Origin: Sipunculus nudus
Taxonomy: Eukaryota > Annelida > Sipuncula > Golfingiida > Sipunculidae
Assembly (NCBI GenBank): GCA_026874595.1
Contig: CM049313.1
Location: 33,383,159-33,447,158, forward strand
Reading direction: 5' to 3'
DNA: 64,000 nt
A model generated the notes under the pieces. The model was not told the DNA's origin. It made no database searches and saw only the letters and a list, made by a program, of their open reading frames with translations. Both the position numbers and the translations under genes were made by a program. Shown piece after piece: positions 47,986-64,000 of the stretch; position 1 is the first letter of the stretch, and every line of letters begins with the position of its first letter.

Positions 47986-50900
47986 TTGTAAGTCTACATA
48001 TCTGTCAGTTCTGCTGTCTACATGTCTGTCCATCTGTCTGTCTGTCATGCATGTCTTTTATTACTTAATTAGACGTAGGAAAGATGTGCTTCTTAGTGAT
48101 TACCATTGTGTTAATATTTATCAGCAAAGTTAAGATGCAAGTTGTATCTTCATTTCTGTGTGGCTGTTTGTTCTTTATGTATAAGTTATTTGTAGGTAAA
48201 ATCATAGGCTCTACAGTTGGATTTCAGTCAAATTTAGTGAAGAGGTGCATCTTTTGACAAATAGCTGTTGATCTTTATGTGGATGCTGTGTTATTTTTTC
48301 CCCTCTTTGTACATCTCTCTGTCAGCAAGGAATTGCCATTTGTACTGACATACAGTGAAGAAAGTTGGTATTATGAAAGAAGTTACAGTAAACATTTAAT
48401 TTTATGTGGTCTTGATTAAATTGGGGTATGAGATTCTACCATTATAATTATATTAAATCTGACTCAGAAGGCCAGAAAAAGTAAACAGATTATTTTCTCA
48501 GGCACTACACTTGTTGATTTTGATCAACCTGCACAAAAAATACTCATTGATATTCAGTAGAAATTTACTGATTTGTAGTTCCTGCTGCTTGGAAATTTCT
48601 TTCAAGAATATAAAATAATGATATTTGGATAAGAATGGCGTGCTTTTACCTATTTAGCTAAACAATTCTGTTGTTATCATGTTGTCCTCCTGATCACATT
48701 AAGATTTTATCAGAAACTTGTAATAAAAGATAAAATAAAAAATTTGCCCTACTCCTTTGACTCCTGAAGAAAATCTTCTCGGGGAAACGAATCTTTAATA
48801 ATATTCCTGTTGCCTCGTACGACCAACATGCTGTTGTGTTTTTCTCAGGGTCAGTCCCAGTGTGTGATTTGTCCAGCCGGCTACGCCTGTCCTGATCCTG
48901 CCACTAAGACCGCCTGTACTGCTGGTTCAGAGTATTCTCTGGCCGGGTCAACAACGTGCACCACTTGTCCTTCAGGCAGAGCATGTCCTTTCCCGAATGT
49001 AGCACCAGTTATCTGCCGGCCAGGACAGACTACTGGAGGGGTGACAGGACAGAGCACATGTACTGAGTGTCCTGCTGGCAGTGCTTGTGCAGACCCCACG
49101 TAAGTATGGATACAGTAAACACCAGCATACTAAATAATATGATAGGAAGCGAGTGCTACTCGAGGGGGTTACCTCCACATTAATATTATAAATAAAGTAT
49201 AGATTTAAGCTACTGTGTGACTAATGTGTATTCCCTGCAGTACAAAGTAGACACAGCGGAGCTTTGCTTATCCGAACACTGTTTATCGAAAAAATATTTT
49301 TATCCAGTTTAAAATATGAGAACCAAAATTTTGATAATTTATCCAAAATCCATACAATAAATAAATTTAAAAAATTTGTTAAAAAATCCAAGCAAATGTA
49401 TCAAGATTGGCAGGCATAATTAATGCAAATTTATTTTCCAGGACCAATAAGCAATAATTGTATCCCCAGACAAAGTCGGGGGATACCATGTTTTCATACC
49501 GGTCCCGCCGCCGCCGCCGCATATGAATCTTGTTGGCGCGATAACCCAAAAAATATTTCACAGAACTTTACCAAACTTGGTATATGTATAGATATGGGTA
49601 AGAGGACGACGCCTATTTAAAATGAGGTCATGACCTTTACTAGGAGAGTGTCCTTGACCTTGAATAGGTCCAATTTTGGGGAAAATCACACAAATTCTTT
49701 AATATCTCAAGAAATCTTGCATGGATTTATCCCAAAATCAAGTTGATGGAAGATCATGGATAGGGTTGTCATGTTCCAGAAACTGGTGGCGCCACCTATT
49801 ATTCTTTACTTGTTTTCGTGCTGTTTAATACCCCCAAAATTGCAACCTTACAGTACTATGAGCATTATAAGTCAAAAACTAATGGACAGATTTCTTTTAT
49901 TTTATGCATATACATAGGTATGGGTTATGGGATGATGTTTATTTAGATTGGGGTCATGACCTTTCCTATGAGAGTGGCTTTGACCTTGAATATTGCCATG
50001 TATGGTGAAAATCACACACCTCTTATGATATCTCCAGTGTTGATAGCCATATGGATTTCAAACATGACTTGTGTATGGCCCACCACTAAAGTAAGAACCC
50101 TATAGGTTCTAGGGTCATGAGGTCAAAGGTCAAGGTCACTGGACTGGCATCTTAAAAGATACTGTGGATGCATTTTAAGCCAAACTTTCATCCCAGGTCT
50201 TCCATCTTCAATATATAGCTCACTTGCCAATAGTGGATGATCCATATAAATTTTGGGGTCACAAGGTCAAAGGTCAAGGCCACAGGAGCTATCTGTCCAA
50301 AAATTAGTTTCTGGATGATAATTCCTTCTTTTATTGATGTATTGATTTCAAACTTGACTTATATATGTCCCACTGAAAAACCAAGACTCCAATTGATTTT
50401 GGGGTCATGAGGTCAAAGGTCAAGGTCACAGGACACATCTTTAAAAAGATTGTGGATGCATTTTCAGCCAAACATTTCATCTCAGACCTTTCATCTTGCG
50501 CATATAGTTCATCTGCCAATAGAAGAAGACCCCTATCAATTTTGAGGTCACAAGGTCAAAGGTGAAGGTCACAGGAGCCATCTGTCCAGAAATTAGTTTC
50601 TTGATGATAATTCCTTCTTTTATGGATGTATGGATTTCAAACTTGACTTGTATTTGACCCATTGGAAAAGCAAGACCTGAATTGATTTTAGGGTCATGAG
50701 GTCAAAGGTCAAGGTCACAGGACACATCTTTAGAAAAGATGTGGATGCATTTACAGCCAAACATTTCATCTCAGATCTTTCATCTTGCACATATAGTTCA
50801 CCTGCCAAGAGAGGAAGAACCCTATCAATTTTGAGGTCACAAGGTCAAAGGTGAAGGTCACAGGAGCCATCTGTCCAAAAATTAGTTTCTGGATGATAAT

Positions 50901-53900
50901 TCCTGTTTTTGTTGATGTATGGATTTCAAACTTGACTTGTATATGTCTCATTGGAAAAGCAAGATCCAAATTGATTTTGGGGTCATGAGGTCAAAGGTCA
51001 AGGTCACAGGACACATCTTTAGAAAGATGTGGATGCATTTTCAGCCAAACATTTCATCTCAGATCTTTCATCTTGCACATATAGTTCACCTGCCAAGAGA
51101 GGAAGACTCCTATCAATTTTGATGTCACAAGGTCAAAGGTGAAGGTCACAGGAGCCATCTGTCCAAAAATTAGTTTCTTGATGATAATTCCTCCTTTTAT
51201 TGATGTATGGATTTCAAACTTGACTTGTATATGTCCCATTGAAAAAGCAAGACTCCAATTGATTTTGGGGTCATGAGGTCAAAGGTCAAGGTCACAGGAA
51301 ATCTCTTTAAAAAGATTGTGGATGCATTTTCAGCCACACATTTCATCTCAGACCTTTCATCTTGCACATATAATTCATCTGCCAAGAGTGGAAGACCTAT
51401 ATCAATTTTGAGGTCCAGGGTCAAAGGTGAAGGTCACAGGAGCCATCTGTCCAAAAATTAGTTTCTGGATGATAATTCCTCCTTTTATTGATGTATAGAT
51501 TTCAAACTTGACTTGTATATGTCCCATTGGTAAAAGCAAGACCCGAATTGATTTTGGGGTCATGAGGTCAAAGGTCAAGGTCACAGGAAATCTCTTTAAA
51601 AAGATTGTGGATGCATTTTCAGCCAAACATTTCATCTCAGATCTTTCATCTTGCACATATAATTCATCTGACTAGAGTGGAAGACCCCTATCAATTTTGA
51701 GGTCAAAGGTGAAGGTCACAGGAGCCATCTGTCCAAAAATTAGTTTCTGGATGATAATTCCTGTTTTTATTGATGTATGGATTTCAAACTTGACTTGTAT
51801 ATGTCCCATTGGAAAAACAAGACCCAAATGGATTTTGGGGTCATGAGGTCAAAGGTCAAGGTCACAGGAAATCTCTCTAAAAAGATTGTGGATGCATTTT
51901 CAGCCAAACATTTCATCTCAGACCTTTCATCTTGCACATATAATTCATCTGCCGAGAGTGGAAGACTCCTATCAATTTTGAGGTCCAGGGTCAAAGGTGA
52001 ATGTCACAGGAGCCATCTGTCCAAAAATTAGTTTCTGGATGATAATTCCTGTTTTTATTGATGTATGGATTTCAAACTTGACTTGTATATGTCCCATTGG
52101 AAAAGCAAGATCCAAATTGATTTTGGGGTCATGAGGTCAAAGGTCAAGGTCACAGGACACATCTTTAGAAAAGATGTGGATGCATTTACAGCCAAACATT
52201 TCATCTCAGATCTTTCATCTTGCACATATAGTTCACCTGCCAAGAGAGGAAGACCCCTATCAATTTTGAGGTCACAAGGTCAAAGGTGAAGGTCACAGGA
52301 GCCATCTGTCCAAAACTTAGTTTCTGGATGATAATTCCTCCTTTTATTGATGTATGGATTTCAAACTTGACTTGTAGATGTCCCATTGGTAAAAGCAAGA
52401 CCCGAATTGATTTGGGGTCATGAGGTCAAAGGTCAAGGTCACAGGAAATCTCTTTAAAAAGATTGTGGATGCATTTTCAGCCAAACATTTCATCTCAGAC
52501 CTTTCATCTTGCACATATAATTCATCTGCCAAGAGTGGAAGACCTATATCAATTTTGAGGTCCAGGGTCAAAGGTGAAGGTCACAGGAGCCATCTGTCCA
52601 AAAATTAGTTTTTGGATGATAATTCCTCCTTTTATTGATGTATGGATTTCAAACTTGACTTGTATATGTCCCATTGGTAAAAGCAAGACCCGAATTGATT
52701 TTGGGGTCATGAGGTCAAAGGTCAAGGTCACAGGAAATCTCTTTAAAAAGATTGTGGATGCATTTTCAGCCAAACATTTCATCTCAGATCTTTCATCTTG
52801 CACATATAATTCATCTGCCTAGAGTGTAAGACCCCTATCAATTTTGAGGTCAAAGGTGAAGGTCACAGGAGCCATCTGTCCAAAAATTAGTTTCTGGATG
52901 ATAATCCCTGTTTTTATTGATGTATGGATTTCAAACTTGACTTGTATATGTCCCATTGGAAAAGCAAGACCCAAATTGATTTTGGGGTCATGAGGTCAAA
53001 GGTCAAGGTCACAGGAAATCTCTCTAAAAAGATTGTGGATGTATTTTCAGCCAAACATTTCATCTCAGACCTTTCATCTTGCACATATAATTCATCTGCT
53101 AAGAGTGGAAGACCCCTATCAATTTTGAGGTCAAAGGTGAAGGTCACAGGAGCCATCTGTCCAAAAATTAGTTTCTGGATGATAATTCCTCCTTTTATTG
53201 ATGTATGGATTTCAAACTTGACTTGTATATGTCCCACTGGTAAAAGCAAGACCCGAATTGATATTGGGGTCATGAGGTCAAATGTCAAGGTCACAGGACA
53301 CATCTTAAAAAAAAAAGATGTGGATGTATTTTTAGCAAAACATTTCATCTCTGATCTTTCATCTTGCACATGTAGTTAACCTGCCAAGAGAGGAAGAACC
53401 CTGTCAATTTTGAGGTCACAAGGTCAAAGGTTAAGGTCACAGGAGCCATCTGTCCAAAAATTACTTTCTGGATGATAATTCCTGCTTTATTGATGTATAG
53501 ATTTCAAACTGGACTTGTATATGTCCCATTGGAAAAGCAAGACCCGAATTGATTTTGGGGTCATGAGGTCAAAGGTCAAGGTCACAGGAAATCTCTTTAA
53601 AAAGATTAAGGTCACAGGACCAACATCTTCAACAAGATTGTGGATTGATAGATGAAAGAAACAATAAATATGCCAAGTGTCAGTATGCTGCTAAAAATGG
53701 GGGCCTATTCTTAAGGGGGGGGGCCTACTATGTCTGGGGATACTCTGGCACCTGCGGTGCCAAGAAATGTCTAGTTTCAGTGTATTTTATATCATTAAAC
53801 TAATGGGTAGCTTAACGAATATTTTTTTTGTCAAGGAATATTTTGGTCTGTCAGTATCTGATTGCATGCAATTTTATAATCACGGTGAATCTGCTAAACT

Positions 53901-56900
53901 GGTTTTAATTTCTATGATCAAAAACTGTGTTTCCTGAACTTTTCAGATAAACGACACTCTACTTCATTATCAATACTGGTATATTACTTGTTCTTGTATA
54001 GTTCACTTAGTTCCTGATGGCATTGTAGTAGCCCCTTCATGAAATAATGTTAAATTTTAACTGGATTTATAGGAAATTATTTTAAATGATCACTCCTTAT
54101 GGCACACTTGGCTTCAATCCTGACAGTTCATGACCAAAAATGGGTATTTAAGAGGAGATGCATGGTAAAGGTCGAGTAGTACCACTGTCTATTATTATAT
54201 AAAAATACAGGAAAATCCCACTAACACAGCCAACCATGGGACTTAAAACAGTGTCAAGTTATAATTATTATTATTGTTATAATAAAAAATAAAAAAAGTA
54301 ATTACAGTGAAACCTCGTTGTGTCGAAGTCGAAGGGACCCTCAGAAAACTTCGACACATCTGAGGTTCGACACAAGCGGGTTTTATTTGGTTATAATTTG
54401 ACTAGAGTTGTCCCGAATATTGAGTCTATAACTTCGAAATAATAATTCGACACAACGAAGTTTTACTGTATTATAATTATCATTATTATATTTTATAATA
54501 TATTTTATGTAGTTGTAGCAGTTGTATTGACAGTGGTAGCAGTAGTGTAGTTGTAGTAGTAGTAGTGGTGTTAGTGGTAGAAGCAGTGATAGTAATTTTA
54601 TATTGTGCTGTCAGGTAGACTTTACGTATAATTAATTATATCTCTTATTATTTTTATTGCAGTGTGGCTGCTGTAGCCTGTGCTGCTGGTTCATACAGCC
54701 TCGCTGGCGCTGCTTCATGCACGCCATGCCCCGGAGGCTACTTCTGTGCCTCTACAACCAGTGTCCCGACCGTGTGTGCTGCTGGAAGCTACGCAGAGGG
54801 TGGCAAATCATCCTGTACCCCCTGTACTGCAGGTTTCGCGTGCCCAAGTCGTGTTAATGGAACCTACGCATACCCTTGTCCAACAGGTAATGTTACACAG
54901 TAATGTGTAATATACCGTAATTTCATACTGTAATGTGTATTACTCATTAATAATATATTCATGTATGTAACTAATGTTACACTGTAATGTGTAAAGCTGA
55001 ATTAAATGCCTTTTTAGTGCATGTGATATTTTACAAACTTCATCAAACATACTTGCAATATTACACTGACCAGTTGGTTTTTGATATTTTCTTGATGCAC
55101 ATTGTACATTTGATACGGTATGTAACATATCATTTGTATTGTGTGAATGTAATGCTGTCATATTACACTGTGTCATACTGTATAAATACATATCATGCCT
55201 AAACAAAATTTGTGATATTACAATATTTTGGAAATTGTATTACATTGTAATCATATCTTTTGTTACTATTTATATGTGATGTATTAAAACTGTGAACTAC
55301 ATATATTGAATAATGCAATGTTATGCAATATGTGTTATTTTTTGTCTAATAAATTAGATAGACAGGATATTTTTATATTTAATTTGACATTTGCTACTAT
55401 TGTATTACAATATTTGTCATATTATATTTAATTTGTTTCTGTTTGTAGGCACCTATGCACCTACAGGCTCTGTGGTGTGCACAGTTTGTCCTCCTGGTTT
55501 CTTCTGTCCTGATGTCACCACGGCAACACAGACTGCCTGCCCTGCTGGCACTTATTCCTTATCCGGCCAAACAGCCTGCACTCCATGTCCCGCGGGATGG
55601 CAATGTCCCGCTGCTGATGGTTCCCAGAATGCCCAGTGTTCACCTGGTTATCATGCATCAGGCAGCCAAACTGCTTGTAATCCATGCCCAGCTGGTCACG
55701 AATGTCCAAGCACAACCTCGGGGGTCGAGATCCCATGCACCGCAGGAACTTACTCGATTGGTCTACAGACTCAGTGTACGGTATGCCCACCAGGAAAAGA
55801 ATGCCCGTCCACCACAGCAGCTACGGAAAACGACTGTGCCGCAGGCTCTTACAGCAAAGGAGGCCAGGCAGCCTGTATACAGTGCCCAGCAGGGTACGCC
55901 TGCCCCACAAGGTTTGCAGATGTTGTCTTGCAGTGCGCGCAGAACACGTACGCTGAAGCTGGATCAGAGGTGTGTACCCCATGTGAAGCAGGGAAGGAGT
56001 GTCCAAACACCAGTCAAGCAGGAACAGCCTGTGCTGCTGGTCATTACAGCCTGGGTCTACAAGCAGCTTGCACACCCTGTCCTATCGGCCATTTCTGTGC
56101 TGACCCAGCAGTGGCACCCCAGCCCTGCCCAGAGGGAGAATTCACAAACAAAACGGCTCAGACATCATGCCAGGCATGTGAACCTGGTTACGCATGTTTA
56201 GAAGGCAGCACTTCGAACCGACCATCCAATAACAAGTGCCCACAAGGTTACTACTGTGCCGACGGTAAAACGAAAACTGAGTGTCCAAAAGGAACGTACG
56301 GAAACATGACGGGAGCAACCACTGAAGCTGAAGGCTGTGCTGACTGTCCACAAGGGTACTATTGCCCCCCAGCTACTGATGGTTATCCTAATCTGAAACT
56401 ACAATGTGCCCGGGGTTATTACTGTCCTACCAAAACAGGGGATTACAAGGATAACCCTTGCCCTGCTGGTAAATACTATCCTGATCGCGGAGCCGTGGCC
56501 CAGACGGAGTGCAAGGATTGTCCAGCAGGTCGTTTCTGCCAGGCTGGGACAGCTGATTATAACTGCAAGGACTGTGCCTGCCCACGTGGCCACTACTGTC
56601 CCAAGGGAATTACTACCCCAACAAAATGCCCTGCTGGAGAATACACAGAAGAAGAGGGCGCCACTGGTGTTGAATTTTGCAAGTCATGTCCCGCTGGTAG
56701 TTATTGTGTGTCGGGTACATCTGGACCAGTTAAGTGTGAACCTGGTACCATGAACCCAATGGTTGGGCGAGGCCTTGCTACAGACTGTGTGGCTTGTCTG
56801 TCAGGCTGGGCATGCACCAAAGCAGGACTGACTGAACCTGATTACCCATGTTCCCCTGGGTACTATTGCCCTGGCGGCAACCACCGCCCAAACCAAACAG

Positions 56901-59900
56901 AATTTGCATGTCCACCAGGCCGTTACACTGACTTCACCAACCTCACCGCTGTCGAGCAATGTACATTGTGTCCACCCACGGTTGCATGTTTAGTCGGCAC
57001 TGGTGGGCAGCAGAAACCACCAGTGGCATGCGCTATGGGCCACTACTGTCCTGTCGGCACAGCAGCACCTAATCAGCATCCTTGTCCTGCTGGAAGCTGG
57101 ACCAACCGCACCAACCTGGCAGATCTGACCGAGTGCTACGCATGTCCAAAAGGATCCTATTGTCTGGAAGGTTCCTCAACCCCTACTGGACTGTGTTTCA
57201 CAGGACACTGGTGTCCAACAGGTATGTGAATTATCAATGGATTCAATATACTGTGGTTGGCTTCATACTTATTGGGTATTTCTAATTTTTAAGTGTATTG
57301 CGAGAGTTCCATTTTCATAATTTCACCATACCATATAGTAAACTACACACAGTATATATACATTATTATATGAATTGTTTAATGTTGGCATAAAAAAAAC
57401 CTTAAACAATAAGGACCCTTAGGGTGTATTAGATGGATTGAAATACTAGTTTATTATAGACATATAATATATAGTCCAAAGTTGCATTGGGTGTATTTTC
57501 ATGAATATTTACATTTCACAAATATTGCAATTTGTTAACATTAAGTGGACTACAGTATTCTTAATAAGGCCACACAAGAAAGTTATTCTTTAACAGTCCA
57601 AATTCAGTAATCCACTTCATGTCAGCTAGGGTAACTTTCCCACTCACAACGAAATGTCTGTCTAGCAGCTCACACATTTGTCTTTTTTTCCTCAGGAACC
57701 CCACTTGGAAATAGCAACCCGTGCCGTGCAGGCTCTTTCAGTAACAACACTGGAAATCACAAATGTCTGTCCAGCGGCTCACACATTTGTCTTTTTTTCC
57801 ACAGGAACCCCACTTGGAAATAGCAACCCGTGCCATGCAGGCTCTTTCAGTTACAACACTGGAAATCACAAATGTCTGTCCAGCGGCTCACACATTTGTC
57901 TTTTTTTCCTCAGGAACCCCACTTGGAAATAGGAACCCGTGCCATGCAGGCTCTTTCAGTAACAACACTGGAAATCACAAATGTCTGTCCAGCGGCTCAC
58001 ACATTTGTCTTTTTTTCCTCAGGAACCCCACTTGGAAATAGCAACCCGTGCCATGCAGGCTCTTTCAGTAACAACACTGGAAATCACAAATGTCTGTCCA
58101 GCGGCTCACACATTTGTCTTTTTTTCCTCAGGAACCCCACTTGGAAATAGCAACCCGTGCCATGCAGGCTCTTTCAGTAACAACACTGGAAATCACAAAT
58201 GTCTGTCCAGCGGCTCACACATTTGTATTTTTTTCCTCAGGAACCCCACTTGGAAATAGCAACCCGTGCCATGCAGGCTCTTTCAGTAACAACACTGGAA
58301 ATCACAAATGTCTGTCCAGCGGCTCACACATTTGTCTTTTTTTCCTCAGGAACCCCACTTGGAAATAGCAACCCGTGCCATGCAGGCTCTTTCAGTAACA
58401 ACACTGGAAATCACAAATGTCTGTCCAGCGGCTCACACATTTGTCTTTTTTTCCACAGGAACCCCACTTGGAAATAGCAACCCGTGCCATGCAGGCTCTT
58501 TCAGTAACAACACTGGAAATCACAAATGTCTGTCTAGCAGCTCACACATTTGTCTTTTTTTCCTCAGGAACCCCACTTGGAAATAGCAACCCGTGCCGTG
58601 CAGGCTCTTTCAGTAACAACACTGGAAATCACAAATGTCTGTCCAGCGGCTCACACATTTGTCTTTTTTTCCACAGGAACCCCACTTGGAAATAGCAACC
58701 CGTGCCATGCAGGCTCTTTCAGTAACAACACTGGAAATCACAAATGTCTGTCCAGCGGCTCACACATTTGTCTTTTTTTCCACAGGAACCCCACTTGGAA
58801 ATAGCAACCCGTGCCATGCAGGCTCTTCCAGTAACAACACTGGAAATCACAAATGGGAACAATGTGAGGACTGTCTGAAAGGTCACTACTGTCCAGCAGG
58901 GTCATCTCTGCCCACTGAGTGCCCAAGGTAAGGTGTTTTTACTGCTGTTCTTTTAGACAGAACTCTTTATGGTCTTTCTAAAATACAGAAGAGTTACCAA
59001 CAAGTCACCAAAAAGAACTGAAGAGTAAATGAAAAGTAATGGAAATTTACCAAAATGTTACTGAAAAGTAATGAAATGTTACTGATAAATTAAGGAAAAA
59101 ACTGAAAAAAGTACCTGAAATTGAATGAAAAGCCAAAATAAAATTGTTTTATCCTAGCATAAAGTTCATAAATATGTGCAAATTTCACTCATAAAAGATC
59201 ACAGAAAGTAGTACAAAAAAGTTTTTGTAAAGCTAATGACTTGTACCAAAATTTTACTTTCTTGTAACATTTTCTTAAAGTTTTGGTACCCTTTGGTAGT
59301 TTTATGGTAGTTTTTCTGTATTTTTCAATGTTTGGCAAGACCCTCTATCAAGGCAAGCATATGTCCTTTCATTCACTGTTAGAATCTCTGTGATAACCTA
59401 CCAGGACCAATCAGATTGGTCATTAACCAAGCAGATGATATTATATTTGTGGTTCCTTATGTAGTTGTGAAATTTGTACCTTCAGGCACCAGAAAAAGAT
59501 ATTAACCTTAGGTGAGTTTGATAAAGCAAGAATATACTTTATGTGTATCATTATGTTTCAGTGGCACATTTAACCGCAACACCAAGGGTGAGAACTTAAC
59601 AGCGTGTGAAGCATGCACAGCTGGTTACTACTGTCCTGGCACAGCCAATGTTGAACCACTGCCATGTGAGAAGGGCAACTACTCTGAATCTGGATGGGCG
59701 ATGTGTAAAACATGTGAACCCGGCCACTACTGTGATTCCAACGCAACAAGCTGGGATCTGATGTGGAACCACAGAATCTGTCCCGCAGGGCTTGAATGTC
59801 CAGCCGGCATGACCAGAGCTCCAGATCTGTATAGTAACCGCTGTCGTAAAGGCCACTACTGTCCACGAGGTGACATCAACCCCTGCCCTGTTCCCTGTCC

Positions 59901-62900
59901 AAACGGAACATACAATGAGCACTATGGTCTTAAACAGGTAGGTCTGCTTCTGGTCACCTCGCACTATAGACATTAGTACATAAGTGATCCCATACCCCAA
60001 AGCCAGGATCTACTGTGTAATTAGGCTCCAGAAAATACCAATTTAAGAATACCTATATGTATCCTCTTGTTATCAGAAAATTAACTCTTTACACTTTCAT
60101 ACAAATTCATTTAGAAGTGCTGAAGAGTTTATTATGTCTAAACTGTGACTATCAAAAAGTTGAATTTCACTGAAACTTTTGGGATAGGTTGGCTTTGATA
60201 CAAGGAAAAGATTGTTTTTAGTGCACGTAGTCTATATCTCAGTTTGTTCATATGACTTCATCTGGTGCTGACATCTGGTGAAGTATTTGGTACTATTCAG
60301 ATCGTGTAAAACAGGTCAGGTTGATCCAGATGAAACTCGTCAGTTTGTGAAGGTGTATGCACCCTTACCACACTCTGGTTATACTTTGGATTCAGAAAAT
60401 TCATGGACTATAATTGTTTGTGTTTTGTCACCAAGAGCTTTTCGAGCAGGGCTTGTCATATACTTTTGAGAGTACTTGTCCATGAATTTTAAGTCGCCTT
60501 TCTAAAATTAGTATTTACAGCCAGCACCCCAAGTGTGTTCAAAATAACTGTGTTGCTTGTTTTATTGCATGTTGGACAATTAAGTGTGTTAATTATATTT
60601 CTCTTTAGTATATGTACAGATAAAAGTATAGGTACTTGAAGAGGCATGACCTGTATGGTTACATTTCTCCAAGAAAGAAATATAGCTAACTGAAGATTAA
60701 TTAAGCTTCAATCCTTTTGGTAAAGGTTTGCATTGGAACCACTTGCCCAGTCAAGCAAGTAGGGACCCACTTTTGGTTGCCCTACAACCATATTCTGGAA
60801 CTTACTTGGCCTAGGCAGGCAGTTAACTGTCAGTGTTGAGCCCTGTCATGTTCTTAATTGTATCCGCCAAAACAGAGTTTTGCGGATACTATGTTTTCAG
60901 CCCACCAGCGCCGCCGCTGCCGCCGCCACCACCGCCGCCACCGCGTAGGTGTCCGTAGAACTCCTCCGTAACCGCTGGGCGGAATTTTACGAAACCCGGG
61001 ATTATGTTTGGGTCACATGTGAACTGCTGTGCCCCGATTTTGTTTTGACCTCTGACCTTTCCTCTGCGCTCTGCATACGTTTGTGCGTCTGTTTCCACAC
61101 ATAAACCCACATATCTCGGGAACCGTTTGACCGATCAGGAAAATTTTTTTGCACAAATGTAGCCCTTTGAGAGCTTTATAACATTCACAAAAAATGGTGG
61201 CGCCACCTGCAACCATGTTTGCACAGTGTCCATCTGTTCGTCCGCCTTGGGTTAAAATCACTCGTATCTCTGCAGTGGTTTGACTAATTCACCTGAAATT
61301 CAGCATGCGTATACATCCCTGACAGCTCTCTTGATTTTATGACAGGTGGCGCCACCTACATTCTAGTTTATGCAGCAGATATCCAAGCTCATATCTTGGG
61401 AACCGTTTGACCGATTGGGCCAAAGTTATGCATGTGTATAGTTCTCACATAGCTCTTTATCATACGCAAAACTGGTGGCGCCACCTGCAACCATTTTTGC
61501 ACAGCGTCCATCTGTTTGTCTGCCAAGGGCAAAAATCACTCATATACATGTAGTGGTTTGACTTATCTGCCTTAAATTTTGCATATGTATACAACTTGGA
61601 CGGCTTTCTGGATTTTGTGGTAGGTGGCGCAACCTACAAACACAATTTGGCTGCAGACATCCATGCTAATATGCAACACTTCACTCTATTTCCCCTTGCC
61701 ACTCAATCCATGCCTCACTTCACCCGTTCCACTCTGATTTAGGCGGATACATGTAGTCGCTTGTCAACTACCCGTATTCTAGTTTTGTTTTACAAGGAGT
61801 TGGTGAAATAGGAAAGCAGTATCCTAACATAAAATGATTTAGGTCTGGGGTCTTGAAATGCTGTAGCAGTTATTGATAATATGGAAAATTAAATGTAATA
61901 TCTTGGTTCATAACTCTGAGTGAATTTATAATTGATATGTCAATAGGAGCAGGTTGGTAAGCTGGCAGTATTATTTGGTTATGAAATTAGAGTTATTCTT
62001 TTTTTTAAGATTTACTGAAAATGATGCTAATTACTCTTTTTTTCACTCTTTGTTTCCCGCAGCACTTTTTTTTTTTTTAATAAAAGAGTTGCAATATTTA
62101 CTATTTCTCTTGTACTGTAACAGTCCAGTAAGTACAAGATGGGGCTTTTTTAAATCTTTGTTTGGCAAATACCAAGCATGTGTCACAACATGTGGAAAAT
62201 GCCCTCATCTTCAGGCCATAGCATGTGAACCATGCATGTTTCTGGCTTTGGGAGTTTTATATATCTATATACATACATACATTCTATATAAAACACATCT
62301 TTCTTCAGTATATTATGCAAAATTTGGAATTATTGCTGATTTTACTCTTTTTCTGCTCTTTTATTTCAAAGAAGGCTACTCGTTTTTTATCAGAGAACTT
62401 ACTCTTTTTTGATTATTTCACTGTGGCAGGTCTGTACTGCTTCTCAGTAAATTTGAGAATCTATATATTTCTGTATTTTTTTAATATTTATGATTTTGTT
62501 TTTGCAGGTATCAGAGTGCCAGGCCTGTAAGGCAGGTTATTACTGCGTTCCTGAAGGACTGGAACAGCCCGCTGGTCCCTGTCCTGGTGGGTATTACTGT
62601 CCTAAGGGGACGGCTGAACCTAACAGCTTCCCATGTCCGATCGGCTTCTACAGAAACGGTTCAGCTAAAGAGAGTTTCCAGGACTGCACTGAGTGTATCT
62701 CAGGATACTACTGTGACGAGGAAGGGTTAGCGCTGCCTAAGGAGTGCCCACAGGGTTATTTCTGTGTGTCTGGCAGCACAATGCCTCAGCCATGTCCGCT
62801 TGGAACATACGGTAACTCTACAGGGCTTAGACGCAGTACCGACTGTACGCCATGCCCTGGTGGTTATTACTGTGATGGCATCGGACGGACTTCACCGACT

Positions 62901-63691
62901 GATGTGTGTGACGCAGGTTTCTACTGTCGTGAAAAAGCTTACACATCAGCACCACCAGATGGCCCCACTGGTGGTGTATGTCCTGTTGGAGGTTACTGCC
63001 CACCTGGTACTGCGTTCCCGGCAGCATGTGACCCAGGAAAGTACAGTGCATCCCCAGGAGCAAAAACTAAATATGATTGTGTGCCGTGTGATCCAGGGTT
63101 CTTCTGCCCAGGGTCAAGCAGCGCTGGAGCTACCAGATTATGTAAGGCTGGATACTACTGCACAGGAGGCTCCAGTGTGCCGACACAGCATGAAACGCAA
63201 CCAGGGCACTACTCACTGGATGGTGCATATAAACAAGAGCCGTGCCCCCGAGGAAAATTCCAGCCGTCTGCGAGATCTTCTGAATGTCTGCTGTGTACAC
63301 AGGGATACTACTGCAATACAACAGGCTCTGTAGATATCACCATCTGTCCGTTCGGTCATATTTGCCCGCTGGGTAGTGAAGTTCCCACGCCTTGTCCAAG
63401 GAGTACATTTTTGAAGCAGGTCGGCCGGTATGAGGAATTTCACTGTGACCCTTGCAAACCAGGTTTTGCTTGTGAATCTGTTGGTCTCCCAGAACCAGTC
63501 ACAAAATGCGCTGCAGGTTACTATTGCACTACGGGCTCTAATATGTCACACCCGGTAGAGCAACCTTTCGGTGACCGCTGCCCGCCAGGATACTACTGTC
63601 CAGAGGGTACAGCTGACTACGCACTGTTCCCTTGCACCAATGGAACATACAGCAACTACACTGGAAACCAAGCTCAAGAAAATTGTACAAG
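1765..63691 (+). CDS. Giant GCC2/GCC3-type cysteine-rich repeat protein, 29 internal exons (partial both ends)
   Basis: Gene model joined from 29 exons listed separately below; exon sum 7336 nt, about 2445 residues, no internal stop. Every exon is bounded by AG and GT and all 28 junction phases match, which makes the chain very unlikely to be accidental. The protein is a long run of modules with spacing C-x2-C-x5-C-x(10-12)-C-x12-C-x2-C, built on CPAGKDC, PPDCPAGTYS and GYYCP motifs. This pattern is typical of the GCC2/GCC3 or ephrin-receptor-like cysteine-rich repeat family, where cysteines pair within each small module; such chains are extracellular. Sequons (N-x-S/T) are frequent from exon 26 onward, supporting passage through the secretory pathway. 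The signal peptide, any catalytic or binding domain and any membrane anchor must lie outside the window, so the biological role cannot be told. It could be an adhesion, mucus-matrix or receptor-like protein; no gene symbol is justified. Confidence 0.9.
3834..4015. mobile_element. TA-flanked MITE, CAGTAAAACCTC type
   Basis: TA precedes CAGTAAAACCTCTTATG and TA follows the inverted end GCAGAGGTTTCCCTG. Length 182 bp, too short to code. The TA duplication and CAG...CTG ends point to a Tc1/mariner-pogo-like non-autonomous element (inference). Confidence 0.6.
5184..5359. mobile_element. Degenerate MITE of the same CAGT type
   Basis: CAGTGAATTCTGTGTAATA at the left end and GGCAGGTTCCACTG at the right, with TA on the right only. 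Internally the phrase TTAATAGACAGGTGG or TTATTAGACAGGTGG is repeated. Old and partial. Confidence 0.45.
10126..10312. repeat. Degenerate GACTCAGACTTGTACT satellite
   Basis: Repeated variants of GGACTCAGACTTGTACTTG run up to about 50 bp before exon 2. A looser stretch of similar wording lies at 9740-9860. It creates a spurious Asp/Ser-rich open frame in one frame and a Trp/Thr-rich one in another. Confidence 0.6.
10359..10635 (+). CDS. Exon 2 (phase 2 in, phase 0 out)
   Basis: The acceptor is tatccaacag. The first base completes Tyr (TA|C), giving HYCPGGTSS across the junction, a perfect continuation of the module begun in exon 1. It has 92 codons with CPAGTANNN, ECPAGHSCTK, CASGTYSLTG and TCPAGKICP motifs, i.e. 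nearly two modules. The donor is CCACAG|GTGAG. An open frame with an ATG upstream (10222) reads into it, but that part is intron made of a degenerate GACTCAGACTTGT repeat. Confidence 0.92.
11635..11694. repeat. (AT)n microsatellite, about 30 units
   Basis: Sixty uninterrupted bases of alternating A and T. Confidence 0.97.
13400..14340. other. GC-richer island in intron 2 with TATA-like and paired octamer motifs
   Basis: Composition is visibly less AT-rich than the flanks. TATAAA at 13456-13461 is followed by two exact ATTTGCAT octamers at 13484-13491 and 13528-13535, inside a diverged direct duplication (GAATCCCTGATATTTGCATA and GATTCCCTCGCATTTGCATA). No open frame is recognisable. It could be a regulatory element, an internal promoter or an old insertion. 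Confidence 0.4.
16556..16865 (+). mobile_element. tRNA-derived SINE
   Basis: The head GTGGTAGCTTAATGGTTAGT matches a pol III A box. About 40 bp on, GGTTATGGGTTTGTGTCC resembles a B box. A non-tRNA body follows, with CAGCACCTGTAATGG and CTCCCCGGGGAG. The cloverleaf 3' half is missing, so this is not a tRNA gene. End boundaries are approximate. Confidence 0.65.
16920..17028 (+). CDS. Exon 3 (phase 0 in, phase 1 out)
   Basis: Acceptor ttatttcag and donor CCTAAAG|GTAACA. It encodes DCSPGTQPNGGQTACVDC and then CLQCPKG, about 36 residues: the last part of one module and the first part of the next. The exit site falls after Cys-x-x-Gly in the middle of a module, as it also does at the exon 16/17 junction. 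A tRNA-derived SINE ends about 55 bp upstream of this acceptor. Confidence 0.92.
17029..18349 (+). other. Intron 3, nothing recognised
   Basis: 1.3 kb between GTAACA and TTACAG. The reverse-strand open frames near 17064-17342 show no recognisable domain and are regarded as chance. Confidence 0.7.
18350..18547 (+). CDS. Exon 4 (phase 1-1), half module plus full module
   Basis: Acceptor tttattacag and donor CCCTCAG|GTAAGT. It encodes about 66 residues: a 17-residue half module (KFCPSATTATPSDCPDG) followed by a full 49-residue module (EYQNVAGQSSC, NCPAGSQC, CLAGQYA, CTACPSG). A strong donor-like GATG|GTGAGT lies at 18400/18401 exactly on the module boundary and in phase 1; use of it would drop one 147-nt module in frame. 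This suggests exon 4 is two ancestral exons fused by intron loss. Confidence 0.93.
18548..21182 (+). other. Intron 4, with short local repeats and a perfect branch point
   Basis: A roughly 42-bp phrase with CCTAACCTTATTACCATATA is repeated at about 19627 and 19668, with a third diverged copy near 19760. A G tract lies at 19951-19962. TACTAAC at 21156-21162 precedes the acceptor. Otherwise unremarkable. Confidence 0.65.
21183..21326 (+). CDS. Exon 5, cassette module exon (phase 1-1, 144 nt)
   Basis: Acceptor tttgtgttag, with a perfect TACTAAC branch-point sequence at 21156-21162. Donor CCCCAG|GTATGA. It encodes GTYSTTPSANC, TTCGPGYDC, CAAGTYSPSG and CVTCAPG: 48 codons, six cysteines. First of eleven successive symmetrical cassette exons. 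Confidence 0.93.
21774..21926 (+). CDS. Exon 6, cassette module exon (phase 1-1, 153 nt)
   Basis: Acceptor aacattacag and donor ACAAG|GTTTGT. It encodes YYSRSTADSCTICPAGKDC, then PPDCPAGTYSLEG and CRTCGQG; 51 codons, six cysteines with spacing 2-5-12-12-2. The intron before it is short (447 bp). Confidence 0.93.
22441..24093 (+). mobile_element. Helentron-like non-autonomous element, family D
   Basis: The left end AGGACCCCGCTTGAAAAG is followed by GTCTGTCTGTC/CCGTCCGTCTG tracts. Near the right end comes the inverted complement GCGGGGCCCT, then the hairpin CTGACCTGTCAG and the terminus TTTTCTAG followed by T. The left flank ends in T. No Rep/helicase coding sequence is present. The interior has a few AAGGTCA-like phrases. 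Left boundary uncertain by a few bases. Confidence 0.6.
24196..24342 (+). CDS. Exon 7, cassette module exon (phase 1-1, 147 nt)
   Basis: Acceptor cttggttccag and donor ATCAAG|GTATGT. It encodes GYYSSAGNGSCTLCPAGKNC, then LDCPAGTYSPQG and CYSCDQG. Two residues shorter than the 153-nt type because the third inter-cysteine loop has 10 instead of 12 residues. It lies between Helentron-like elements D and E. Confidence 0.93.
24590..26584 (+). repeat. 335-bp tandem satellite inside element E (about 6 copies)
   Basis: The phrase AACAGGGCACAAATCGTAA recurs near 24625, 24960, 25295, 25630, 25965 and 26303, and once more near 28000. Each unit ends with CTGGTGGCGCCACCTGTATT or a variant. Copies are clearly diverged. 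Confidence 0.85.
26585..27753 (+). mobile_element. Helentron-like element, family A, copy 1
   Basis: Begins GTATCCGCCAAAAC after a T run and ends GGCAGATACATGTAG, then a weak hairpin and CCCGTATTCTAG before TTTT. It contains GGTGGCGCCACCT phrases repeated internally. It splits a T tract of element E: the uninterrupted version of the site is visible at about 28262 (TATTTTTTTTAAAG). Insertion is therefore T|T without an evident target duplication. Confidence 0.7.
28803..28955 (+). CDS. Exon 8, cassette module exon (phase 1-1, 153 nt)
   Basis: Acceptor acaattttcag and donor GAAGCAG|GTTAGG. It encodes GQMSAAGSGSCTDCPAGKDC, then PPDCPAGTYSPLG and CTNCEAG. It has GQMS where its neighbours have GYYS or GYIS. 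The PAQPxLxPPDC loop places it in the closely related exon 8-12 subgroup. Confidence 0.93.
29447..29599 (+). CDS. Exon 9, cassette module exon (phase 1-1, 153 nt)
   Basis: Acceptor attgtttag and donor AATCCAG|GTGAGA. It encodes GYISDTRSPSCTICPAGKDC, then PPTCPAGTFSPQG and CSNCNPG. Introns on both sides are under 500 bp and carry no clear mobile element, unlike most introns here. Confidence 0.93.
30070..30222 (+). CDS. Exon 10, cassette module exon (phase 1-1, 153 nt)
   Basis: Acceptor ttttcattgcag and donor AGTGCTG|GTAGGC. It encodes GYMSSADSDNCTVCPAGKDC, then PPDCPAGSYSAQG and CTSCSAG. The open frame extends upstream to an ATG in the pyrimidine tract, but that part is intronic. Confidence 0.93.
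30404..32381 (+). mobile_element. Helentron-like element, family B, copy 1
   Basis: Begins GTATCGCCAGACA after T, with a hairpin partner TAGTCTGGAGATAC. The right end has TGTCTGGCGATAC (exact complement of the first arm), the hairpin GGCACCAGCGGTGCC and AAGAAATGTCTAG before T. The interior has three diverged ~310-bp units starting near GCCACTTGACAGTAC, several TGACCTTGAAT motifs and an AT-only stretch at 31217-31286. No transposase. Confidence 0.7.
32512..32658 (+). CDS. Exon 11, cassette module exon (phase 1-1, 147 nt)
   Basis: Acceptor ttctctgacag and donor CCTGCAG|GTGGGT. It encodes GFYSAANSPSCTECPAGKDC, then PPDCAAGTFSPKG and CTACPAG. Helentron-like element B1 ends about 130 bp upstream. 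Confidence 0.93.
32659..33236 (+). other. Intron 11, nothing recognised
   Basis: Standard borders, no repeat or coding signal seen. Confidence 0.7.
33237..33389 (+). CDS. Exon 12, cassette module exon (phase 1-1, 153 nt)
   Basis: Acceptor ccctcacacag and donor TCTTCAG|GTAAGT. It encodes GYYSAAGNASCTECPAGKDC, then PPDCAAGTFSTKG and CTGCSSG. It is closest in wording to exon 11 (TECPAGKDC, CAAGTFS, KGTAGCT), which suggests a recent pairwise exon duplication. Confidence 0.93.
33700..34080. repeat. Fragment of dispersed repeat with GTGCGGCCATTA duplicated
   Basis: GTGCGGCCATTA occurs twice about 75 bp apart, followed by a GC-rich tail with GGCGGCAAAACGCGGATCT. AGGTCAAAGGTCAT and AGGTCAGAGGTCATG upstream recall the AGGTCA phrases of other elements. 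No clear ends. Confidence 0.4.
34145..34297 (+). CDS. Exon 13, cassette module exon (phase 1-1, 153 nt)
   Basis: Acceptor ctgttatttcag and donor CTTACAG|GTAAAT. It encodes GYFSMAGQGSCTICPASKDC, then PPDCPDGSYSNQG and CTACLTG. CPASKDC replaces the usual CPAGKDC. Confidence 0.93.
34298..35006 (+). other. Intron 13, nothing recognised
   Basis: AT-rich, no repeat or open frame of note. Confidence 0.7.
35007..35150 (+). CDS. Exon 14, cassette module exon (phase 1-1, 144 nt)
   Basis: Acceptor atttccaacag and donor GCACCAG|GTAAGC. It encodes GYYRTVNETACTPCPGGYDC, then VMCAAGTYSRAA and CRACAPG. It resembles exon 5 more than its immediate neighbours (same 144-nt length, CxxGYDC). It contains one sequon, NET. 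Confidence 0.93.
35151..36270 (+). other. Intron 14, nothing recognised
   Basis: A slightly less AT-rich patch around 35520-35830 contains a reverse open frame with no recognisable features. Confidence 0.65.
36271..36423 (+). CDS. Exon 15, cassette module exon (phase 1-1, 153 nt)
   Basis: Acceptor gtttttttcccag and donor ATCGCAG|GTACAG. It encodes GFFSREGAANCTECPAGKNC, then PPDCDPGSYSNAG and CSKCIAG. It is the last of the eleven full cassette exons; its SSPAVTG loop recalls exon 6. Confidence 0.93.
36424..39671 (+). other. Intron 15, essentially empty
   Basis: 3.2 kb of AT-rich unique sequence. The only structure noted is a decayed pair of MITE-like ends at about 39289-39440 (TAGTGAAACCCTGATAAGAG and GCAGGGTTTCATTG). 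No exon is needed, since exons 15 and 16 join in phase and in module register. Confidence 0.7.
39672..39722 (+). CDS. Exon 16, 51-nt mini-exon (phase 1-1)
   Basis: Acceptor gttgaaacag and donor ACGGCAG|GTAAGA. It encodes only GYYQTAAGQAACTQCTAG, the first third of a module. The intron after it falls at the CPAG|K position inside the module. Being symmetrical and short, it could be skipped without shifting the frame. Confidence 0.9.
40261..40349 (+). CDS. Exon 17 (phase 1 in, phase 0 out)
   Basis: Acceptor aactttttcag and donor AAAGCT|GTAAGT. It encodes NKCPSKTSAPAACPAGTYQ and then DGMETCKA, completing the module begun in exon 16. From here until exon 26 introns are mostly phase 0. Confidence 0.92.
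40598..42160 (+). mobile_element. Helentron-like element, family C
   Basis: The left end after T5 is ATGCCCCCGCC, followed by CCGTCATTCCGTCATTCC. The right end has GGCGAGGGCAT (10 of 11 complementary to the left end), the hairpin GTGTCGTTCCGACAC and ATCTAG before TTT. The interior is a 180-bp tandem array. No coding capacity. Confidence 0.65.
40690..42110 (+). repeat. 180-bp tandem satellite inside element C (about 8 copies)
   Basis: The phrase CACATGTACGGACTTTTTTT recurs every 180 bp from about 40691 to about 41950. Central copies (41050-41760) are nearly identical; the outer copies are more diverged, a pattern expected from unequal exchange. Confidence 0.95.
42334..42447 (+). CDS. Exon 18 (phase 0-0)
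   Basis: Acceptor tctcccttcag and donor GGAGAG|GTAAGA. It encodes CPAGYTAVGTGNNIC, TICPANHQC and PVPCPAGE; 38 codons. Helentron-like element C ends about 170 bp upstream. Confidence 0.92.
42939..43019 (+). CDS. Exon 19, 81 nt (phase 0-0)
   Basis: Acceptor gatattttcag and donor TGTTCT|GTAGGT. It encodes TSSAGATSCEKCPVGKIC and then GGSTTCS; 27 codons. It is short and frame-neutral, so it could be skipped in frame. Confidence 0.9.
43020..44022 (+). other. Intron 19, with one MITE
   Basis: Apart from the MITE at 43599-43781, nothing was recognised. Confidence 0.65.
43599..43781. mobile_element. TA-flanked MITE, CAGTAAACC type
   Basis: TA-CAGTAAACCATCAAAATTAA at the left and GCAGGAGTTTACTG-TA at the right; 183 bp, non-coding. 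Confidence 0.55.
44023..44250 (+). CDS. Exon 20 (phase 0-0)
   Basis: Acceptor ataatgttccag and donor TGCACG|GTTAGT. 76 codons: TGEYSNGTHCIPC, GYKCPAPDQSPIICPDGYY, CKACPQGHAC and CSGGFFSPGG. The sequon NGT appears near the start. Confidence 0.93.
44998..45705. mobile_element. TA-flanked non-autonomous DNA transposon, 708 bp
   Basis: Left end TA-CAGCAGAACTTGTCGTGA, right end TCACAGCAGGTCCTGCTG-TA, with GGGGACA and TGTCCCC just inside, so the inverted ends extend about 25 bp with few mismatches. It is GC-richer than its surroundings. Open frames of 115 and 120 codons inside overlap on opposite strands and show no transposase motif. It fills much of intron 20. Confidence 0.65.
45786..45948 (+). 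CDS. Exon 21 (phase 0 in, phase 1 out)
   Basis: Acceptor gattttttttcag and donor GATCCAG|GTAAAA. It encodes MCPPGFMSGTGSHSC, TECFAGRSC, CAAGTYSPLG and CTPCDPG. The first Met is an internal residue, not a start, since the reading frame runs in from exon 20. Confidence 0.92.
46525..46643 (+). CDS. Exon 22 (phase 1 in, phase 0 out)
   Basis: Acceptor cttacaactgcag and donor GGAAAG|GTAATA. It encodes GTYSGVRASKCETCPPGKHC and then DCNTGEYSLGGK. The module is completed in exon 23 (VTACTQC). Confidence 0.92.
46961..47159. mobile_element. Nested-palindrome element with four ACCAATGAGAG copies
   Basis: The outer arms are 21 bp and match at 20 of 21 positions (46961-46981 and 47139-47159). A second, inner inverted pair lies at about 47017-47036 and 47071-47091. 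The motif ACCAATGAGAG therefore alternates plus, minus, plus, minus. Probably a foldback-type MITE. Confidence 0.5.
47704..47892 (+). CDS. Exon 23 (phase 0-0)
   Basis: Acceptor gtttgtttcag and donor GCTGCA|GTAAGT. 63 codons: VTACTQCPAGHKC, PVPCVSGEYATVG, TTCPAGQQC and NCPANYYSAA. The donor is followed at about 40 bp by an intronic TGTC microsatellite. Confidence 0.93.
47932..47991 (+). repeat. Imperfect (TGTC)n microsatellite
   Basis: Mostly TCTGTCTGTCTG with TTTG interruptions, about 40 bp after the exon 23 donor. Confidence 0.9.
48849..49099 (+). CDS. Exon 24 (phase 0 in, phase 2 out)
   Basis: Acceptor gtttttctcag and donor CCCCAC|GTAAGT. 83 codons and a split Thr: GQSQCVICPAGYACPDP, CTAGSEYSLAG, TTCPSGRACPFP, ICRPGQTTGG and TECPAGSACADP. 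The split codon AC|T is completed by exon 25 after a 5.6-kb intron holding element B2. Confidence 0.93.
49460..53774 (+). mobile_element. Helentron-like element, family B, copy 2 (expanded)
   Basis: Begins GTATCCCCAGACA after T with partner AAGTCGGGGGATAC, then a CCGCCGCCGCCGCCGC tract. Ends TGTCTGGGGATAC (exact complement of the first arm), hairpin GGCACCTGCGGTGCC and AAGAAATGTCTAG before T. The termini and the first ~500 bp match copy B1; the length difference is caused mainly by a tandem array. Open frames on both strands across 50.3-53.4 kb, up to 151 codons, are satellite translations. Confidence 0.75.
50090..53600 (+). repeat. Tandem satellite of about 285-290 bp in element B2 (about 12 copies)
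   Basis: Each unit carries GAGGTCAAAGGTCAAGGTCA and, about half a unit later, AAGGTCAAAGGTGAAGGTCA, plus the phrase GGATGATAATTCCT. Twelve exact copies of AGGTCAAAGGTCAAGGTCA were counted by eye, the first at 50120. Copies are highly similar. Confidence 0.9.
54305..54468. mobile_element. TA-flanked MITE with 25-bp inverted ends, 164 bp
   Basis: TA-CAGTGAAACCTCGTTGTG at the left and CACAACGAAGTTTTACTG-TA at the right; about 23 of 25 terminal bases pair. It is the best-preserved copy of the CAGTGAAACC family here. ACTTCGACACATCTGAGG-type phrases repeat internally. Confidence 0.75.
54520..54600 (+). repeat. Imperfect (GTA)n/(GTAGTG)n repeat
   Basis: Variants of GTAGTAGTAGTAGTGGTG run just upstream of exon 25. 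Confidence 0.75.
54663..54886 (+). CDS. Exon 25 (phase 2 in, phase 1 out)
   Basis: Acceptor ttttattgcag and donor CCAACAG|GTAATG. It encodes VAAVACAAGSYSLAG, CTPCPGGYFC, VCAAGSYAEGG, CTPCTAGFACP and then PCPTG; sequon NGT. The next exon continues the module with GTYAPTG. Confidence 0.93.
54887..55448 (+). other. Intron 25, nothing recognised
   Basis: AT-rich with many TGTAATG/TATTACACTG phrases (a weak, very degenerate short repeat); the last 58 bp stay open in the exon 26 frame. Confidence 0.6.
55449..57221 (+). CDS. Exon 26, 1773-nt multi-module exon (phase 1-1)
   Basis: Acceptor ttctgtttgtag and donor CCAACAG|GTATGT. About 590 residues in one uninterrupted frame. The first half repeats the short module (CPAGTYSLSGQTACTPCPAG and similar). 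The second half switches to a longer type with GYYCP cores, e.g. CPQGYYCADG, CARGYYCPTK, CPRGHYCPKG, CSPGYYCPGG, CAMGHYCPVG. Six sequons are visible (NTS, NKT, NMT, NQT, NLT, NRT). The open frame continues upstream to an ATG at 55391 with a hydrophobic leader, but those codons are the pyrimidine tract of the intron. Confidence 0.96.
57222..57651 (+). other. Intron 26 proper, before the acceptor array
   Basis: The single-copy part of the intron. Its last bases CACAACGAAATG contain the AAATG at which the 109-bp array begins. Confidence 0.7.
57652..58850 (+). repeat. Exact 11 x 109-bp tandem array of 3' splice sites plus exon 27 start
   Basis: The unit runs from AAATGTCTG through CTCAC (branch-point-like), TTTGTCTTTTTTTCCTCAG, then GAACCCCACTTGGAAATAG to ACTGGAAATCAC. 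Acceptor-adjacent exon starts lie at 57696 + 109n, n = 0 to 10, the last at 58786. The total is 1199 bp, exactly 11 units, with only a handful of substitutions and no indels. The array begins and ends on the shared pentamer AAATG. Each copy holds a branch-like site, pyrimidine tract and AG, so each is a complete 3' splice site. Confidence 0.97.
58786..58927 (+). CDS. Exon 27, using the last of eleven tandem acceptors (phase 1 in, phase 2 out)
   Basis: Acceptor tttttttccacag and donor CCCAAG|GTAAGG. It encodes GTPLGNSNPCHAG, SNNTGNHKWEQCEDC and LKGHYCPAGSSLPTECP. The first 65 bp are present in ten more copies upstream, each behind its own 3' splice site. Only this copy continues past AAATG into GGGAACAATG and the rest of the module. 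Phase 1 entry fits exon 26, and AG|T (Ser) joins it to exon 28, so this acceptor is the productive one. Confidence 0.92.
58986..59318. mobile_element. TA-flanked long-inverted-repeat MITE, 333 bp
   Basis: Left TA-CAGAAGAGTTACCAACAAG, right TACCAAA-type complement ending GGTAGTTTTTCTG-TA; about 20 of 28 end bases pair. The interior repeats AAAAGTAATGRAAATGTTACTG-like phrases in both orientations. It occupies half of intron 27. Confidence 0.45.
59562..59937 (+). CDS. Exon 28 (phase 2 in, phase 0 out)
   Basis: Acceptor ttatgtttcag and donor AAACAG|GTAGGT. 125 codons: GTFNRNTKGENLTAC, CTAGYYCPGT, CEKGNYSESG, CEPGHYCDSN, CPAGLECPAG, CRKGHYCPRG and CPNGTYNE. Sequons NLT, NYS, NAT and NGT. Long GYYCP-type modules as in the second half of exon 26. 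Confidence 0.94.
59938..60859 (+). other. Intron 28, 5' part, nothing recognised
   Basis: Ordinary AT-rich sequence up to the start of element A2. Confidence 0.65.
60860..61782 (+). mobile_element. Helentron-like element, family A, copy 2
   Basis: Begins GTATCCGCCAAAAC after T, with hairpin partner GTTTTGCGGATAC and a GCCGCCGCTGCCGCCGCC tract. The right end has GGCGGATACATGTAGTCGC, hairpin arms GTAGT and ACTAC, and CCCGTATTCTAG before TTTT. Four TGGCGCCACCT-type phrases are spaced through the body. It is shorter than copy A1 because it has fewer internal units. The Gly-rich reverse frame comes from the GCC tract. Confidence 0.7.
61783..62507 (+). other. Intron 28, 3' part, T-rich
   Basis: T-rich runs at 61996-62110 give Phe-rich chance open frames; no coding signal before the exon 29 acceptor. 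Confidence 0.65.
62508..63691 (+). CDS. Exon 29, 1184-nt multi-module exon (phase 0 in, phase 2 out)
   Basis: Acceptor tttgtttttgcag and donor ACAAG|GTGAGA. About 394 residues of GYYC modules: CKAGYYCVPE, CPGGYYCPKGTAEPN, CISGYYCDEE, CPQGYFCVSG, CPGGYYCDGIG, CPVGGYCPPGT, CDPGFFCPGS, CKAGYYCTGG, CTQGYYCNTT, CKPGFACES, CAAGYYCTTG and CPPGYYCPEGT. Sequons include NGS, NST, NTT, NMS, NGT, NYT and NCT. The split codon AG| is left open; the gene continues beyond the window. Confidence 0.96.
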
Positions 63692-64000
63692 GTGAGAAAT
63701 GACATCCTATGATGGCAGACAAGGGTAGAAATTGTTTTTTTTTTAAAGGACAGGTCCATGGTCTGTTCATGCCCCAGTCTATTGAATGAGGATGAAGGTA
63801 TCCATACAATAAGGATGACATATTATAATTAAGCCTTTTGGATTTCAGGTTTTACCAGTATATGCACGAGGTCAGAAATAATCCAGAGGTCATAACCTGT
63901 CATTAAGACATGAGCAAATCTCTGAAGTTCTAACAAGATTTCACTATTAAGTCATTGAGGCACTGGCGGGGTTCCAACAGGATCTTTTACTCCAAAGTCC
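63692..64000 (+). other. Start of intron 29
   Basis: Begins GTGAGA. No exon with matching phase 2 entry was found before the window ends. Confidence 0.6.

Follow-up and report, generated by a model that had tools for sequence, protein, structure and literature searches.

The border between intron 26 and exon 27 of a gene for a large cysteine-rich protein consists of a 109-bp unit repeated head to tail eleven times, each copy carrying a complete 3' splice site. With a probability of roughly 0.82, this array is a minisatellite of the mirage type that is removed as intron, with splicing to the 11th acceptor.

The array lies in a window of 64,000 nucleotides, which is the whole stretch of DNA that was analysed. 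Its plus strand encodes a long series of cysteine-rich repeats. The Pfam family PF07699 (Ephrin_rec_like) was recognised in both exons tested, scoring 29.8 bits (cut-off 23.1) on 55448-57220, and the host gene, from an animal, encodes a large cysteine-rich protein of the Ephrin_rec_like (GCC2/GCC3) type. The exon numbers 26 and 27 are used as labels and follow the count of the original prediction. The features that matter here are listed below, with P0005 denoting the closest relative among the proteins compared.

55449 to 57221, plus strand: exon 26, 1773 nt, cysteine-rich repeats, ending in ...GHWCPT-G in phase 1, with AG before 55449 and CAG/gtatgt at 57222
57222 to 57223, plus strand: GT of the exon 26 donor, CAG/gtatgt, scoring 13.0 with the matrix made from the gene itself (this site is in the matrix)
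57652 to 58850, plus strand: array of 11 x 109 bp units, head-to-tail, each with 44 intronic and 65 exonic bases
57696, plus strand: first exon base after acceptor 1, with acceptors 2-10 following every 109 bases
57805, 57914, 58023, 58132, 58241, 58350, 58459, 58568 and 58677, plus strand: first exon bases after acceptors 2-10
58786 to 58927, plus strand: exon 27 (142 nt) when the 11th acceptor is used, entered in phase 1 and left in phase 2, in frame into exons 28 and 29
58851 to 58855, plus strand: AAATG, five bases found both at the array start and in the exon just behind the array, from a comparison of the array ends
58928 to 58929, plus strand: GT of the exon 27 donor, AAG/gtaagg, score 10.9 (this site is in the matrix)
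59562 to 59937, plus strand: exon 28, 376 nt, 62.8% identical to P0005 over 59554-59940 (tblastn)
62508 to 63692, plus strand: exon 29, coding part, 76.1% identical to P0005 over 62499-63689 (tblastn)

Eleven tandem copies of a 109-bp unit without an indel had been predicted, and a copy-by-copy comparison of 57652-58850 bore this out. Tandem Repeats Finder places the array at 57652-58855 with a period of 109, 11.0 copies, 98% matches and 0% indels. A 24-base probe for the border, allowed up to 3 mismatches, matched eleven times in the window, always within the array and with 0 or 1 mismatch, while the mean in 100 shuffles was 0.00. All eleven units span the border with their 44 intronic and 65 exonic bases, as mirage minisatellites do. 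Three copies (4, 5 and 7) equal the consensus and are thus identical to each other, as are copies 8 and 10; eight of the eleven carry one to three substitutions. The 55 copy pairs differ by a mean of 2.2 bases (2.0%). Divergence is higher in the 44 intronic positions of the unit (3.1%) than in its 65 exonic ones (1.3%), and since variants are so few we read no selection into this gap. Mirages are marked by concerted evolution within the array, with the edge copies set apart; here the inner copies 4, 5 and 7 are alike and copy 11 at one edge carries a private change, yet copy 1 at the other edge equals the inner copy 9. Copies 1 (57652-57760) and 9 (58524-58632) share three variants that are absent from the other nine. 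The private change of copy 11 is a T>C at 58828, unit position 87, in the exonic part; the codon reads Ser in copy 11, would read Phe in copies 1-10, and is Tyr in P0005.

Tandem arrays are often mis-sized, and the true locus might hold one or few copies. Substitutions in eight of eleven copies, in a non-periodic order, argue against simple repetition of one read stretch. Among the published mirages, the one in BflGb6 was called aberrantly assembled in the draft genome (PMC3087553, in the part drawn on here), and two lancelet assemblies disagree at PGBD5, although re-sequencing argued against such an error there (PMC3902484, likewise in part). We consider an assembly error quite unlikely, while the exact copy number of eleven is not secured.

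Border repeats of this kind were not found at the other splice sites checked in the window: for 20 other acceptors and 15 donors, each searched within 3 kb, no copy of the 40 bases surrounding the site exceeded 24/40. Tandem arrays as such are frequent between the exons here, judging from three others in the window. One at 24621-26584 has a period of 336, 5.8 copies and 83% matches, one at 40690-42022 a period of 180, 7.4 copies and 92% matches, and a large one at 50050-53607, upstream of the coding stretch at 54619, a period of 289, 12.4 copies and 91% matches. The unit of this last array contains GGTCAAAGGTCAAGGTCA.

Splice signals were scored with a matrix built from splice sites of this gene picked by eye, 20 acceptors and 15 donors; the array acceptors were kept out of it, as were acceptor 44027, which has no AG, and donor 46639, which has no GT. 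Every copy contains, as originally claimed, the branch-like CTCAC, the pyrimidine tract, the AG and the first 65 exon bases, and the A of CTCAC lies 24 bases before the exon with no AG in between; splice signals are present in 11 of 11 units. The array acceptors score 10.0-11.8, compared with 0.1-14.2 for the 20 authentic ones when each is left out in turn. Values of 11.1-11.8 belong to copies 1, 3-7 and 9 and a value of 10.0 to copies 2, 8, 10 and 11. That the acceptors are nearly identical also proved right, as near the AG they differ only by CCTCAG versus CCACAG (copies 2, 8, 10 and 11) and by one change in the tract of copy 6. Indeed, the exon 26 donor at 57222 faces eleven acceptors in a row, all of them complete and similarly strong. 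Site strength does not favour the last acceptor, because the other ten score equal (3) or higher (7).

Donors inside the array are far weaker. In a scan of 57200-58960 no donor above 3 was found within it, compared with 5.4-13.4 for the 15 authentic donors, each left out in turn. The five GT sites of copy 4 score 0.8, -10.1, -10.1, -5.0 and -7.4. The array therefore multiplies acceptors only, and a unit may lengthen exon 27 or leave with the intron but can hardly be an exon of its own. Apart from the two authentic donors, the same scan shows sites at 57621 (3.3) before the array and at 58864 (4.5) and 58933 (4.3) behind it; the one at 58864 is a weak second donor within exon 27 and counts against the preferred reading. 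A 45-nt microexon running from phase 1 to phase 1 was nevertheless considered for each unit. It would extend for 45 bases to TTTCA/GTAACA, and its length and phases would allow serial inclusion of a block of 15 residues. We rejected it on donor scores, with -7.4 for TTTCA/GTAACA itself and 0.8 for the best GT of the unit, both far below the authentic sites. As the two closest relatives, P0005 and P0121, also have no insertion there, we regard this possibility as barely credible.

The eleven acceptors differ in their consequences for the message. From acceptor 11 (58786), and from this one only, the frame is open through exon 28 and the joined part of exon 29. Splicing to any of acceptors 1-10 leads to a stop 125 nt past the junction (10/10), because 109 is not a multiple of three and a TAG is met on read-through into the next copy. 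Skipping of exon 27 leads to a stop as well. Messages from acceptors 1-10 carry their stop ahead of later junctions and would be expected targets of nonsense-mediated decay. The productive message very likely uses the 11th acceptor, because the exons downstream of the array are 62.8% and 76.1% identical to P0005 and, at this identity, have evidently been kept by selection.

The relatives come from two protein searches, of which the best 120 of 2180 matches (among 7978 candidates) and the best 120 of 1007 matches were used, giving 225 distinct proteins for comparison. Both searches excluded proteins more than 1.75 times as long as the query, so that a giant amphioxus protein could have been missed. 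The closest among the best 120 of 1007 was P0005 (956 aa; longest listed contig 4056 bases), with 72% identity across the full stretch of residues 540-900 in the joined protein. In tblastn it aligns colinearly with the end of exon 26 (63.7%), exon 28 and exon 29. The closest named proteins among these 120, within the same length limit, are from a sea cucumber, Holothuria leucospilota (P0121; 63% over 99%), and an acorn worm, Glandiceps talaboti (P0122; 67% over 61%). Aligned with the peptide read from the 11th acceptor, P0005 has no insertion at the junction and 79% identity over 47 of the 48 exon 27 residues, and P0121 has no insertion and 72% identity over 39 residues. The junction is spanned by 224 of the 225 listed proteins, most of them being further repeats of this type. 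There is no insertion in the exon 27 region of 122/224, while 102/224 have one of 1-50 residues, so our argument from insertions uses only the two closest relatives, P0005 and P0121. Insertions of 15-17 residues in that region, the size of the block considered above, occur in 15 of the 224 aligned proteins, and we assume these to be paralogous repeats aligned out of register. Four proteins (P0001, P0002, P0004 and P0007), compared by eye, terminate 2-41 residues beyond the same GHWCPxG, an ending that an intron at the corresponding place would explain. A pattern search found many other listed proteins that end after a similar motif.

Further searches returned no confirmed counterparts. With exon 26 as query, no match was obtained among solved structures, and no Rfam family reached the gathering score in the whole window. 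The translated array (98 aa, one frame) gave one candidate and no match as a protein query and thus revealed no further record of the array. The exact border pattern and the end of exon 26 gave no match in viral contigs; in prokaryote genome contigs the end of exon 26 gave 16 pattern matches, none of which was confirmed.

Use of the first acceptor would follow a rule of first come, first served. It lies nearest to the donor and is made first, and proximity effects are seen in duplicated-site constructs. Exon 27 would then have 1232 nt, and since exon 26 itself has 1773 nt, such a long exon is not out of keeping with the gene, a point that counts against use of the last acceptor. The protein would end there, which would truncate it ahead of the conserved exons 28 and 29, and we hold this outcome highly improbable. 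In the part of PMC6783452 used here, a designed library in which two tandem acceptors 2-59 nt apart were strengthened showed no preference by order. As the spacing is 109-1090 in the present array, position alone gives no guide.

The ten extra acceptors might also serve a purpose. They could act as decoys in regulated unproductive splicing, with a share of the messages degraded and copy number tuning the output of the gene. Consistent with this idea, all ten are at least as strong as the last acceptor and all lead to the stop 125 nt on. Yet this stop follows from the unit length and the TAG, which makes selection unneeded, and the units are young, being 2.0% apart. In addition, splicing reportedly proceeds undisturbed in the published mirages, as far as the parts of PMC3087553 and PMC3902484 used here go. 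We therefore consider such regulation unlikely. Very unlikely, in our estimate, is a poison-acceptor array of variable copy number, perhaps outside amphioxus, in which each further unit would bring another strong acceptor with a premature stop behind it and the repeat number would set the productive fraction like a rheostat.

For the preferred reading, a mirage-type minisatellite removed up to the 11th acceptor, we envisage the following history. The initial duplication in tandem, with the 5-bp microhomology AAATG as its probable site, would have copied a complete acceptor together with 65 exon bases. AAATG is presumably a fitting microhomology for this step; the bases beside it differ at the two array ends. 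Unequal exchange or slippage, plus conversion, may then have enlarged and homogenised the array. Because copies 1 and 9 share private variants, growth was not simply unit by unit from one end, and we infer that block duplication or conversion probably took part. Everything in the array up to the 11th acceptor would now effectively be intron. In the mature message exon 26 would be joined to the 11th acceptor, giving a short exon 27 of 142 nt that adjoins its own donor and keeps the frame, whereas copies 1-10, if used, would yield early-stop messages expected to be degraded. The array itself, the strength of its sites, its lack of donors, the outcome for the reading frame and the match of the 11th-copy protein to relatives are shown directly, whereas acceptor choice, degradation of misspliced messages, the way in which the array expanded and variation in copy number are what we infer from them.

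The original prediction knew of no array of whole 3' splice sites like this one, a statement that the literature does not support. Border-spanning repeats named mirages have been published in amphioxus, where tandem repeats lie across intron-exon borders of Adh3, the globins BflGb6 and BflGb9, troponin C and PGBD5, with the troponin C case cited in PMC3902484 (PMC3087553, PMC3902484, both as far as consulted). According to the same portion of PMC3087553, the Adh3 and globin mirages do not interfere with regular splicing, though splice signals are present in many of their units; such additional sites might serve as cryptic ones, and a model of intron gain was proposed from them. Mirages are further characterised by lengths that are unstable between alleles or within one animal. 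In the BflGb6 mirage, as in the present array, the duplicated segment runs from the 3' end of an intron into the 5' part of an exon. Unit lengths are similar to the 109 bp found here (150-160 bp, 157 bp, 108 bp and 60 bp, with 10-72 bp in Adh3). Our eleven copies exceed the two to seven reported in those portions for amphioxus, namely 6 and 3 in BflGb6 haplotypes and, in PGBD5, either 2 or 7 copies of a 60-bp unit and either 3 or 6 of a 108-bp unit, according to the assembly (PMC3902484). The gene is a different one, and the present case comes from genomic sequence. The array thus fits the known mirage kind and is an unusually long case. Within the literature searched, which lay mostly outside subscription papers, we noticed no border array outside amphioxus.

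Tandem genomic duplication has also been linked to intron gain. In the AGGT model, as described in the part of PMC3443670 used here, duplication creates extra splice sites, an exonic AGGT segment giving both donor and acceptor of the new intron. Unlike in this model, acceptors alone are copied here, no new intron position arises and the old intron grows. Intron gain by this route calls for a unit that supplies a donor as well as an acceptor, and the best donor of the present unit (0.8) lies below the range of authentic donors (5.4-13.4). NAGNAG and wider tandem acceptors likewise present one donor with several acceptors. NAGNAG acceptors are few and close together. Those in the consulted part of PMC6783452 are 2-59 nt apart, as compared with 11 whole modules of branch site, tract and AG placed 109 bases apart in the present array.

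Eleven near-equal acceptors that face one donor, with the last alone productive, amount to a natural experiment on 3' splice site choice, because site strength is almost constant across them. The rules at stake are nearness, order of synthesis or exon definition. If our preferred reading is true, the intron has grown by 1.09 kb at its 3' end while the protein has hardly changed. If the host is not an amphioxus, mirage repeats would be more widespread than PMC3087553 and PMC3902484 report in the parts drawn on here.
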